Of a DNA stretch of 34,863 nucleotides, positions 13,441 through 16,715 are shown in pieces. Position 1 is the first letter of the stretch; every line of letters starts with the position of its first letter. The position numbers and the translations under genes are program-made. The notes beneath the pieces were generated by a model, which was given only the letters and a program-made list of their open reading frames with translations, did no database searches and was not told the origin of the DNA. Source of the stretch: an uncultured Bacteroidales bacterium (lineage in GTDB: Bacteria > Bacteroidota > Bacteroidia > Bacteroidales > UBA4417); contig CAIRHD010000330.1 in NCBI GenBank assembly GCA_903878265.1, positions 1 through 34,863 of the forward strand, in the 5' to 3' direction.

Positions 13441-13791
13441 ATGGGAACTATATTTTTAAAAACCCTGATAATGTTCATCCTATCATTTGTAATAGCTATG
13501 GTGGTGGCATTATTGATTTACTGGATACGCAGGTTGCTTACTTCGGTGAGGATTAACAGTTTTTTTGATGAAAAGTCGAAAACTATGGTACAGAGGGCAC
13601 AAAGGATTCATAAAATCCATGACCAAAAACTTGTTTTAATCTCTGAAAAGTTTGAAAATGAAGTACATCCTGAATTGTTTGATTTCTACAAAGGGGTAAA
13701 CGATGAATTTGAGCAACCTGAAGATTATCACGGTGAGTTAAAACCTATAATTCGTCGTAAGCGTAGTATTAAAAAACACAAGAATATTTAG
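13441..13791 (+). CDS. Single-helix membrane protein coupled to the OadB-like gene (possible OadG-like partner)
   Basis: The 116-residue protein has one strongly hydrophobic segment (about residues 7-30) followed by a basic W-I-R-R boundary and a long polar cytoplasmic tail rich in Lys, Arg, Glu and His, ending in K-K-H-K-N-I. I recognise no family from sequence. It ends 16 nt before the OadB-like gene on the same strand, so the two are almost certainly cotranscribed. In decarboxylase Na+ pumps the gamma subunit OadG is likewise a one-helix protein with a polar tail that holds the complex together. This topology and position suggest an analogous role, but there is no visible sequence match to OadG or its Zn-binding tail. 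Confidence 0.7.
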   Translation: MGTIFLKTLIMFILSFVIAMVVALLIYWIRRLLTSVRINSFFDEKSKTMVQRAQRIHKIHDQKLVLISEKFENEVHPELFDFYKGVNDEFEQPEDYHGELKPIIRRKRSIKKHKNI

Positions 13792-13807
13792 TTTATCAAA
13801 ATACAAA

Positions 13808-15019
13808 ATGGAAAATATAGACTTCTTTAAGTTATTCCAAGGGTTTGGCACAATAGCCGCTTCAAGTCCAACGATTATAATTGCACGGTTTGGATTGATG
13901 ATTTTGGGTGCATTGCTTGTATATCTTGGAAAAAGGGGCATACTGGAACCTTTGTTGATGATCCCAATGGGAATTGGCATGTCGGCAATAAACGCGGGTG
14001 TGATGTTTATGCCCGATGGTTCGATGGGGAATTTATTTTTGGATCCAATGATCAGTGAGCCAGATCAATTGATGAACATCATGCAAATCGACTTTTTGCA
14101 ACCCATTTATGTGCTGATGTTCAGCAACGGATTAATTGCATGCTTTGTTTTTATGGGCATTGGTGCCATGCTTGATGTGAGTTATTTGCTCGATCGACCA
14201 TTTTCGAGCATGTTTTTGGCCATGTTTGGCGAACTGGGCACTTTTTTGACCATCCCAATTGCAGTTTATTTTGGGTTAAATTTAAAAGAAGCCGCATCTA
14301 TAGCCATGGTTGGAGGTGCTGACGGCCCCATGGTCCTGTTTACTTCGTTGAGCTTGGCAAAACATCTTTTTGTGCCGATAACGGTTGTTGCATATTTGTA
14401 CCTCGGTTTAACTTACGGTGGCTATCCCTATTTAATCCGGTTGATGATTCCCAAACATATCCGTGGTATAAAACCAGAACCGCCAAAACGTAAAAAGAAA
14501 CCAATAAATTCGGGCATGAAACTCACTTTTGCCGTTTTGATTTGCACCGTTCTTTCTTTTTTGTTCCCGGTTGCCTCTCCCCTATTTTTATCGCTTTTTG
14601 TCGGTGTTGCTATTAAAGAATCGGGCTTGACCAATTTATTGAATTTTATTTCTGGGCCATTACTTTATGGATCAACATTTTTATTGGGTTTGCTTTTAGG
14701 AGTACTTTGCGATGCAAGCTTATTGCTCGACCCTAAAATTTTGATTTTGTTAGTGTTAGGAATCACAGCTTTACTAATTTCTGGAATTGGCGGCATTTTA
14801 GGTGGGTATATTCTCTATTTCCTTTCAGGCAAAAAATATAATCCAACTATAGGTATTGCTGCTGTAAGTTGTGTGCCTACCACGGCCAAAGTAGCTCAAA
14901 AAGAAGTTTCAAAAGTAAATCCACAAGCTTTTATCCTGCCACAGGCAATTGGTGCAAATATCAGTGGTGTGATTACTACCGCAATCATCACAGGCATTTA
15001 TATCACACTGTTAAGCTGA
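13808..15019 (+). CDS. Divergent sodium-translocating decarboxylase beta subunit-like protein (OadB family)
   Basis: The 403-residue membrane protein follows the OadB/MmdB/GcdB family from end to end. In the family this subunit carries Na+ across the inner membrane, driven by decarboxylation of a carboxybiotin on a partner subunit. By comparison with recalled Klebsiella OadB numbering, the key residues are Asp172 in G-G-A-D-G-P (D203), Tyr198 in A-Y-L-Y (Y229), and the block N-P-T-I-G-I-A-A-V-S-C-V-P-T-T-A-K with Asn345, Gly349 and Ser354 (N373, G377, S382). The last position, Arg389, is replaced here by Lys361. The usual G-A-D-G-P-T is G-A-D-G-P-M, and a basic insert (P-K-R-K-K-K, about 226-231) sits in the central loop. 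No carboxyltransferase or biotin-carrier gene is in the window. It may pair with such subunits encoded elsewhere or have taken another transport role. Confidence 0.85.
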   Translation: MENIDFFKLFQGFGTIAASSPTIIIARFGLMILGALLVYLGKRGILEPLLMIPMGIGMSAINAGVMFMPDGSMGNLFLDPMISEPDQLMNIMQIDFLQPIYVLMFSNGLIACFVFMGIGAMLDVSYLLDRPFSSMFLAMFGELGTFLTIPIAVYFGLNLKEAASIAMVGGADGPMVLFTSLSLAKHLFVPITVVAYLYLGLTYGGYPYLIRLMIPKHIRGIKPEPPKRKKKPINSGMKLTFAVLICTVLSFLFPVASPLFLSLFVGVAIKESGLTNLLNFISGPLLYGSTFLLGLLLGVLCDASLLLDPKILILLVLGITALLISGIGGILGGYILYFLSGKKYNPTIGIAAVSCVPTTAKVAQKEVSKVNPQAFILPQAIGANISGVITTAIITGIYITLLS

Positions 15020-15067: not shown

Positions 15068-15188
15068 CACAACCATTTTTGGTTATAGTTTTTATTTTTT
15101 GAGATATTTAGGCTTATCTCATTGATTTACAACTAAACAAACCAGCCTTTCAAAGCAAAAACTGATTTTGCGCTTAACTATTTTGCTT

Positions 15189-16715
15189 ATGCGAAACTTA
15201 CTCCTTTCTCTTATTTTTGCAACATTTTCATTTTCAGTACTATATTCGCAAAATACCTTGTTTGATGATACAAGGATTTCATCGGTTTTTATCGAAATAC
15301 CAGTTGATTCGTTAGCCGTTATTTATAAAGATGTGCTTTCAGACCATTATTTTAAAGCCTTGTTTATTTTTGAACATGAAACTGGTAGGGACACTTTGGC
15401 AAATGTTGGTTTCAGGTTGCGAGGAAACACTTCCCGCTTTTCGCAAAAGAAATCCTTTAAAATAAGTTTTAACGAGTACGAATCAGCCCGCCGGTATCAG
15501 GGAGTAAAAAAAATCAACCTCAACGGTCAGCACAACGACCCGACGATGATACGAGAGAAACTTTATTATTACGTATGGAACAAGGCGGGAATGGCCAAAC
15601 GCCGCACGAACTTTGTAAAATTGCACATAAACCATATCTATTATGGGCTATATACAAATCTCGAAGAATTTGATAAGGACTGGTTACAAAAGATTTATGG
15701 CGAAAAAAGTGGCAACCTCTACAAATGCACTTACCCTGCCGATTTAGTATTTCATGGCAGCGATCAACAGTATTACAAAAATATTGTGAGTGGCTCTTCA
15801 ACAGGTGGCAGAGCTTACGACCTGCAAACCAACGAAACCGAAGATGATTATTCCGACCTCGTGGAACTGATAACTTTGCTTGACCATCCGGCAGATTCCA
15901 CTTTTGCTTTGCTTATAGCTCAAAAACTGAATATTGACATTTTGCTGAAAGCTTTTGCAATTGATGTAGCCACAGGAAATTGGGACGATTATATGTATAT
16001 CAATAACAATTATTTCCTTTACCATAATTCAAATTCCGGTAAATTTGAATTTATCAGTTATGATACAGATAATACTTTTGGCGTTGATTGGGTGAGCCAG
16101 GACTGGACAAGCCGCAATTGCCTCGATTGGTACAACCAAACTGAACCGAGGCCATTAGCTAAAAAAATATTTGCTATCCCAGAATTTATGCAGAAATACC
16201 AGCAATATCTGGATACAATTACCAATGAAATCCTCAACTTGAACCTTGTTTTTCAGCATATTGATTCGCTCGAAACTTTGATTACGGAAGCTGCAAAAGC
16301 CGATATTTACCGCTCGCTCGATTATGGCTACACCATTGCCGATTTCTATAACGGTTTTAAACAAAAAGTTGACTACCATACACCTTACGGGATAAAACCC
16401 TTTTTAACTAGACGCCGCGATGCCACTTTGCACCAACTCGCTACGTCAGTTATTTCCGATTTTGCTTTCAACAATATTGAACTTTTACTTTACCCCAACC
16501 CTGTTGGCGATTTTTTGAATGTTAAAATATCAGATGCACAAGCAAGTGGAACAATACATATTTTTGATATGTTGGGCCAAAAGCTAAAAGCTACGGAAAT
16601 TTCTAAAAGCCAATCCGCTTTTTCAATTCCGGTAAACGATATTAATCCAGGTATTTATACTTTGGTAATTACAGGGAATGGATTGGCCGGTAGCCAGCGT
16701 TTTATAAAAAAGTAA
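15189..16715 (+). CDS. Secreted CotH kinase-family protein with T9SS sorting domain
   Basis: I choose the ATG at 15189, giving 508 residues with a clean signal peptide (1-20, ending L-Y-S); a TTG seven codons upstream is less likely. The CotH kinase domain covers about residues 30-400. Recognisable features are F-R-L-R-G-N-T-S with following lysines (around 76-91), L-N-G-Q-H-N-D-P-T-M-I-R (about 111-122), the catalytic-loop-like G-N-W-D-D (263-267), and Y-D-T-D-N-T-F-G (291-298), which corresponds to the metal-binding Asp motif. CotH of Bacillus is an atypical protein kinase of the spore coat; secreted Bacteroidota relatives have unknown targets. The last 75 residues form a T9SS type A sorting domain (Y-P-N-P-V-G-D ... 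P-G-I-Y-T-L). It would act on or outside the outer membrane, where the ATP supply is unclear. Confidence 0.87.
   Translation: MRNLLLSLIFATFSFSVLYSQNTLFDDTRISSVFIEIPVDSLAVIYKDVLSDHYFKALFIFEHETGRDTLANVGFRLRGNTSRFSQKKSFKISFNEYESARRYQGVKKINLNGQHNDPTMIREKLYYYVWNKAGMAKRRTNFVKLHINHIYYGLYTNLEEFDKDWLQKIYGEKSGNLYKCTYPADLVFHGSDQQYYKNIVSGSSTGGRAYDLQTNETEDDYSDLVELITLLDHPADSTFALLIAQKLNIDILLKAFAIDVATGNWDDYMYINNNYFLYHNSNSGKFEFISYDTDNTFGVDWVSQDWTSRNCLDWYNQTEPRPLAKKIFAIPEFMQKYQQYLDTITNEILNLNLVFQHIDSLETLITEAAKADIYRSLDYGYTIADFYNGFKQKVDYHTPYGIKPFLTRRRDATLHQLATSVISDFAFNNIELLLYPNPVGDFLNVKISDAQASGTIHIFDMLGQKLKATEISKSQSAFSIPVNDINPGIYTLVITGNGLAGSQRFIKK

Follow-up and report, generated by a model that had tools for sequence, protein, structure and literature searches.

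A MadB-Like Beta Subunit and Its One-Helix Partner Form a Probable Second Membrane Sector for Biotin-Dependent Na+ Pumps in an Uncultured Bacteroidales Bacterium

Na+ pumps driven by carboxybiotin are commonly portrayed as complexes of fixed composition. The window analyzed here, positions 1 to 34863 of contig C330 (34,863 nucleotides) in the 5.78-Mb, 95% complete genome of an uncultured Bacteroidales bacterium, contains two adjoining genes that encode a small protein with one membrane helix, here called micro-gamma, and a 403-amino-acid (aa) beta subunit of a MadB-like clade, here called W. We suggest that the two proteins probably make up a self-contained membrane sector, of beta-gamma type, for a Na+-translocating decarboxylase that depends on biotin, a second sector beside the canonical MmdB of the same genome. 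The best reading of the sequences and gene arrangements is that the W beta and micro-gamma would be a sector that serves several biotin-dependent decarboxylases, either from a separate locus or as a replacement within their operons, and the small protein looks like an overlooked, widely conserved subunit. G, C, and L numbers denote genomes, contigs, and loci.

RESULTS

The beta subunit is part of a MadB-like clade

The window beta is a member of clade W, which is MadB-like and separate from OadB/MmdB. An initial annotation of this DNA had placed a 116-aa one-helix open reading frame (ORF) 16 nt before an OadB-family beta; the coordinates agree (spacer, 13792-13807), and the larger protein matches OAD_beta (PF03977) with 354.4 bits against a gathering cut-off of 31.6. 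The top NCBIfam model was TIGR03136, the carboxybiotin decarboxylase of malonate decarboxylase (496.3 bits), and the betas near the split carboxyltransferase genes of Rhodobacter, a malonate-type cluster whose other neighbors were named by eye, fall within clade W. The window beta resembles MadB in these two respects. However, its score lies under the equivalog cut-off of 596.9, no malonate decarboxylase family was found among the ten window proteins scanned, and no malonate genes adjoin the pair. To the general decarboxylase betas of TIGR01109 (MmdB/OadB/GcdB) it is similar in fold, Na+ ligands, and presumed reaction, but it reaches only 178.8 bits against their cut-off of 190.6, is 30% identical to the canonical beta of its own genome on C118, and differs in K361, M175, and Y287 and in having its own helix partner.

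The proposal that the protein represents a distinct branch of the family was borne out by a maximum-likelihood tree of 69 betas, in which a 100/100 branch separates 30 W rows from 39 canonical rows. This branch is long (2.94); six near-copies (L007 and L009-L013) and five exact duplicates were left out of the tree. Clade W is not canonical, yet it includes betas with Lys at the Arg389 position that belong to complete Mmd-type operons, so that the grouping with ordinary, Lys-sharing betas that the initial annotation had set against its own view applies in part. The best Protein Data Bank match of the predicted fold was 6iww, an OAD beta-gamma structure (E value of 4e-13, TM score of 0.70); the model was built from 18 rows and has a pLDDT of only 70.2.

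The distribution of W is patchy and crosses phyla. Of the 247 genomes of the window's order, 16 have it, and these belong to 14 families; it also occurs in 9 of the 297 genomes searched in a clostridial order. In Competibacterales, 32 of 40 genomes qualified when matches were counted at ≥66% identity, two of them by partial matches (G573 and G586).

Residues of the predicted Na+ sites are retained

Residues were mapped by alignment to Salmonella OadB (6iva; StOAD numbering), for which the consulted sections of PMC7274780 assign the Na+ sites to Asp203, Ser382, and Asn412 and describe Glu40 as critical. The window beta carries all four (D172, S354, N384, and E47) and is also unchanged at D149, Y227, Y229, R250, E298, T318, N373, and G377; StOAD R304 was not mapped onto it. 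Among the 36 W rows, ten of which (the window and its close relatives L007-L015) are not independent of one another, the equivalents of D203, S382, Y227, and Y229 are kept throughout, that of E40 is kept in 35 with one gap, and that of N315 is always Tyr (Y287 in the window beta).

The Klebsiella numbering used in the initial annotation was right: five of its six positions are kept, D203, Y229, N373, G377, and S382 being D172, Y198, N345, G349, and S354. Its readings of Lys361 for Arg389 and of G-A-D-G-P-M with Met in place of Thr are also correct, and both are markers of the clade (36/36 W rows). The basic insert that it saw in the middle loop is present but small (31 residues and a net charge of +8, compared with 27 residues and +6 in the genome's canonical beta). 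The functional weight that it laid on the change from Arg389 to Lys was not upheld. The change is clade-wide, and Arg389 substitutions did not severely inhibit Klebsiella OAD, as far as the consulted sections of PMC7274780 describe them; for these reasons we dropped it as a sign of altered energy coupling and take Lys361 as a clade marker that is no evidence for another energy source.

The beta subunit is preceded by a conserved one-helix gene

The 116-aa ORF is a real, conserved gene. It is under purifying selection, as shown by a comparison of the window with L008 (synonymous rate, dS, of 0.85; nonsynonymous rate, dN, of 0.08; dN/dS of about 0.1), and the corresponding Rhodobacter ORFs of 37 to 38 aa gave dS of 0.75 to 0.81 and dN of 0.08 to 0.15, all computed with our own script. 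A one-helix ORF lies immediately 5' of the W beta in 35 of 36 loci, which agrees with the claim that this beta has its own small partner, and also in front of all nine further clostridial W genes (8 loci, chosen by eye from the listed ORFs). A near-identical rule (ORF end at −160 to +60 for these controls and at −160 to +30 for W) found such an ORF before none of 14 canonical betas in Bacteroidales and before 7 of 10 in clostridial or competibacterial genomes, and five of these seven (L175-L179) have a different, OadG-like helix. The micro-gamma of L023 was assigned by hand, the rule having chosen a neighboring 31-aa ORF, and the starts in L011, L018, and L027 were trimmed by hand.

The partners are 37 to 64 aa long in Clostridia and Rhodobacter and 45 to 147 aa in Bacteroidales. 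Their helix mostly follows F-x3-F-x-I-[SAG]-[MF]-x-[VI]-A-x2-I, a motif common to Bacteroidota, Bacillota, and Pseudomonadota, and its two I columns hold I in 34 of 36 rows and V in 2. The Bacteroidales proteins have an additional tail, in which the columns E/D, L/I, D/N, Y, and G are kept in most tail-bearing rows and which is absent from the Clostridia and Rhodobacter rows of the alignment. An obvious guess from the E-L-x-D-x-Y-x-G pattern is that the tail might dock to the carboxyltransferase or the carrier.

The 116-aa protein scored over the cut-off of no family (no PF04277 match; NF002792 at 16.3 bits against 93). Like OadG/MmdD (PF04277 and TIGR01195), NF040909 (OadG_rel_small), and NF047904 (MmdE), the micro-gammas have one N-terminal helix encoded with the beta, but those tested pass none of these models, and the Bacteroidales tail is without a match. 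The link to OadG comes from Competibacterales. At L022, the only one of the 36 loci without a separate one-helix ORF upstream, carboxyltransferase, MmdD, carrier, and W beta stand in a row, and the MmdD both bears a helix of the micro-gamma type and passes the OAD_gamma model PF04277 (29.7, cut-off of 27). An MmdD with this helix precedes the carrier and the W beta in 20 of 22 Competibacterales loci whose upstream region is visible. These are 19 of 29 further loci recognized by pattern, 16 of which show the carboxyltransferase end too, plus L320 by eye; L309 and L321 are ambiguous, and the other seven are partial or ended by a contig edge. The micro-gamma thus has the features of a gamma subunit, namely an N-terminal helix adjoining the beta and in common with a bona fide OAD_gamma protein, and the view of it as an unrelated partner found no support.

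TABLE 1 Coordinates of the gene pair and of its main features in the window
Feature	Position	Strand	Basis or remark
One-helix micro-gamma protein, 116 aa	13441..13791	+	ATG ORF; helix at about residues 8-30; basic tail, predicted cytoplasmic
MadB-like (clade W) beta, 403 aa, carboxybiotin decarboxylase/Na+-pump subunit	13808..15019	+	ATG ORF; PF03977, tree, fold
Tail motif H-P-E-L-F-D-F-Y-K-G	13666..13695	+	Part of the Bacteroidales-only tail
Glu47 (StOAD Glu40, needed for decarboxylation in StOAD)	13946..13948	+	Alignment
Asp172 (StOAD Asp203, Na+ site 1)	14321..14323	+	D in 36/36 W and 39/39 canonical
Met175 after GADGP, clade marker	14330..14332	+	M in 36/36 W; T in 37/39 canonical
Basic middle loop, about residues 222-236	14471..14515	+	Sequence comparison
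Ser354 (StOAD Ser382, Na+ site 1)	14867..14869	+	36/36 W and 37/39 canonical
Lys361 (StOAD Arg389), clade marker	14888..14890	+	K in 36/36 W; R in 39/39 canonical
Asn384 (StOAD Asn412, Na+ site 2)	14957..14959	+	N in 30/36 W, S in 6

Decarboxylase genes elsewhere in the genome

Profile searches of C330 gave no match to carboxyltransferase (PF01039), PYC_OADA (PF02436), or the biotin carrier (PF00364). The earlier remark that the window has neither a carboxyltransferase nor a carrier therefore holds for the whole contig, but the genome has three carboxyltransferases elsewhere, each beside a carrier. One is part of a complete operon on C118 that encodes a canonical methylmalonyl-CoA decarboxylase: a carboxyltransferase of 519 aa, an MmdD-like protein of 135 aa, a biotin carrier of 147 aa, and a second, canonical beta of 397 aa. 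Thus, the search for a canonical OadB and decarboxylase genes that the initial annotation recommended was successful, and the W beta is not the only beta of the genome. The pairs on C41 and C508 have no adjoining beta, and the single PYC_OADA match is on C290.

Gene neighborhoods of W in other genomes

In the Competibacterales operons described above, the carboxyltransferase that goes with the W beta is of the MmdA type. A C118-type carboxyltransferase (≥74% identity) is present in all 16 W-positive genomes of the window's order. In G037 one operon encodes a carboxyltransferase 80% identical to the C118 type, MmdD, carrier, a 57-aa micro-gamma, and the W beta, and there is no other beta match in the genome. 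G064 has a W beta only, with a C118-type carboxyltransferase standing alone, and G167 has a complete canonical operon about 1 kb away from its W pair, on the opposite strand.

Six clostridial genomes have W as their only beta, and in these the MmdD by the carboxyltransferase either has no helix (3 genomes) or is absent there (3 genomes). G253 and G254 each have a single beta match (W) and a single carboxyltransferase match, the latter in an operon with an MmdD-like protein without N-terminal helix and a carrier and no beta. Of PF04277, the G253 protein covers no more than the C-terminal part (21.4 bits, below the cut-off), and the protein of G254 was called helix-less by eye, its Ala-rich part scoring 1.72 where a threshold of 1.6 was used elsewhere. 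G432 resembles them (MmdD-like protein of 71 aa, 16.5 bits, below the PF04277 cut-off). G525, G417, and G469 have an MmdA-type carboxyltransferase with no MmdD or carrier beside it, and G525 has an additional GcdA-like carboxyltransferase match. The 11 clostridial mmd operons from genomes with canonical betas (nine controls plus G536 and G471) all have an MmdD with a helix. Outside these 11, no MmdD stands beside the carboxyltransferase of G319 (L283) or the second ones of G536 (L297) and G252 (L221); the one at L221 adjoins a 664-aa carboxylase-type gene, and L294 has no carboxyltransferase in the stretch.

Other soluble partners also occur near W. In G536 the pair is beside genes that we take to be acyl-CoA dehydrogenase/Etf-like and a 580-aa carboxyltransferase, presumably GcdA-like, with 23% identity to the C118 type. 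In G281 and Rhodobacter, the pair is near split carboxyltransferase genes of the malonate type. G469 carries two micro-gamma/W-beta pairs in tandem (L255, on C39), so that both betas have a small helix gene of their own. In several genomes, the W beta thus either adjoins an ordinary biotin-dependent decarboxylase or is the sole beta match to go with it, and the different energy source suggested in the initial annotation is not supported.

Further observations on these loci

A CotH-family protein with a type IX secretion tail is encoded downstream of the pair (window positions 15168-16715). In Herbinix/Anaerocolumna-type genomes and in G471, the W pair is preceded by a divergent LysR-like regulator gene, named by eye; this gene was recognized by sequence at L018, L020, L021, and L253 and by size and place at L017 and L019. 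In clostridial loci, the micro-gamma is preceded by a second helix peptide of 31 to 34 aa that ends in I/V-R-x-E-L-K, about 120 to 240 nt upstream of the W beta (L023, L025, L252, L254, L255 twice, L256, and L257). It lies inside a longer ORF in L252 and in one of the L255 copies and is absent from L253 and L259, and in G319 (L258) a similar helix forms one protein with a soluble part resembling MmdD. The second helix peptides tested matched no family over the cut-off.

Seven Bacteroidales loci (L102, L104, L106, L107, L108, L112, and L113) have an ORF of 113 to 150 aa that lies 67 to 290 nt before the micro-gamma and is hydrophobic in an N-terminal segment and at its C-terminal end. The seven have no mutual BLAST similarity and are leader peptides or chance. 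Among the canonical operons, one mmd operon ends with two tandem beta genes (L206, on G020:C308), and the Bacteroidales MmdD is about 300 aa long with a long extra N-terminal part at L206-L209, L211, and L214-L218. At L312 the translated contig start is presumably sequencing-adapter read-through joined to a biotin-carrier ORF.

DISCUSSION

We propose that a carboxyltransferase encoded elsewhere would load CO2 onto a biotin carrier, that the carboxybiotin would be decarboxylated at the W beta, and that Na+ would be exported, the energy source being the usual one, carboxybiotin decarboxylation. The 116-aa protein would sit with its helix against the beta, at the site of OadG, and its tail in the cytoplasm may take over the docking role that the soluble part of MmdD has elsewhere. 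Considering that an orthologue of the C118 carboxyltransferase is present in all W-positive genomes of the order and that W replaces the canonical beta in G037, we suggest that the C118 methylmalonyl-CoA decarboxylase is the likeliest donor, although we put this at about an even chance.

Several observations weigh against the proposal that the pair is such a sector. Nothing in this genome ties it to a particular carboxyltransferase, and W was not found in the same-genus genomes G119 and G217, in line with its patchy spread. All eight micro-gammas tested fail the OadG models, and comparing the micro-gamma alignment with canonical MmdD by profile gave no match (probability of 2%), so that homology to OadG rests on the helix of the Competibacterales MmdD. 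Because the W-only and control genomes come from different lineages, the loss of the helix from MmdD cannot be separated from ancestry. In addition, G037 has a helix-bearing MmdD as well as a micro-gamma, and G319 has a micro-gamma and an MmdD-like protein (by eye) with another helix. The idea that the micro-gamma is simply the helix cut off MmdD is weakened by these two genomes, which suggest that it can be an additional subunit. Finally, the window beta differs from StOAD at T148L, R258K, N311G, N315Y, R389K, N392Q, and S419T (N311A caused moderate inhibition, according to the consulted sections of PMC7274780), and the N412 position is Ser in 6 of the 36 W rows.

The next candidate donor after C118 is the carboxyltransferase/carrier pair on C508, and it could be argued that our pair is its dedicated sector, the whole making a complete second decarboxylase for another acyl-CoA substrate. 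The C508 locus (L032, G000:C508:4782-6893) encodes a 536-aa carboxyltransferase and an unusual 135-aa biotin carrier with neither beta nor MmdD alongside. Moreover, 14 of the 16 W-positive genomes have a match at the C508 level, and in G064 the C118-type carboxyltransferase is without carrier and MmdD and the C508 type adjoins a carrier. However, C508-type carboxyltransferases gave at least about 150 matches, as counted by eye and each with ≥71% identity, in the 247 genomes of the order, and W is found in only 16; because the type is so common without W, we did not retain C508 as the first-choice partner. Furthermore, the only carboxyltransferase match of G054 (92% complete), which has W, is of the C118 type, and G164 (82% complete) lacks a C508-type match. 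C508 may also be an acyl-CoA carboxylase with its biotin carboxylase elsewhere, and C41 is another such pair. Both the dedicated sector and C508 as donor are therefore unlikely in our view, and C508 is kept as a rival to C118.

The non-subunit explanation, that the small protein is an independent membrane protein merely located in the same operon, would account for the missing OadG-model and MmdD-profile matches and for the widely varying lengths in Bacteroidales. Yet a similar helix occupies the same position in Bacteroidota, Bacillota, and Pseudomonadota, gamma and beta were duplicated together in tandem in G469, and the helix occurs within an OAD_gamma protein in Competibacterales, which makes this explanation improbable. 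We consider it still less probable that the pair is a Na+ channel, leak, or carrier independent of decarboxylation, as proposed in the initial annotation. The absence of a carboxyltransferase near the pair in the window would fit such a function, and in 14 of the 16 W-positive genomes of the order (the exceptions being G037 and G167) the C118-type carboxyltransferase is on another contig or >100 kb away; the clade-specific K361, Y287, and M175 and the long branch to the canonical betas would fit as well. However, E47, D172, and S354 are invariant in the 36 W rows bar one gap, the clade includes members within carboxyltransferase operons and malonate-type clusters, and W-only genomes would need the W beta for their decarboxylase.

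Betas, OadG-type helices, the NF040909 small relatives, the NF047904 MmdE pieces, and, according to the consulted part of PMC11575231, Bacteroidota Mmd genes at two loci are already known. In Xylanibacter ruminicola, as described there, mmdB and an oadG-like gene lie away from mmdA, as the beta and its helix partner do in the window. However, the mmdC carrier gene accompanies mmdB and one beta is named in that part of the paper, whereas the window pair is MadB-like and adds a second beta. The consulted sections of PMC7274780 name no one-helix partner for MadB, and among the matches listed in our literature searches no title concerned one for MadB-type betas. Nor did these matches include the near-universal helix partner of the clade, a W beta placed in an mmd operon, or the parallel lack of a helix in MmdD.

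If the proposed sector exists, the W beta and micro-gamma could be a mobile plug-in for methylmalonyl-CoA, GcdA-like, and malonate-type carboxyltransferases across three phyla, and one soluble decarboxylase in this bacterium might then have two interchangeable sectors that change its ion coupling; we offer this as a tentative idea and regard it as doubtful. The comparison points to one clade of the membrane half that has its own tiny helix subunit and pairs with soluble halves often encoded elsewhere. The micro-gamma, with 37 to 64 aa outside Bacteroidales, is easily overlooked in annotation; its recognition would explain seemingly orphan oadB genes and offers a candidate gamma subunit for malonate-type pumps, and subunit exchange and coupling would become directly testable.

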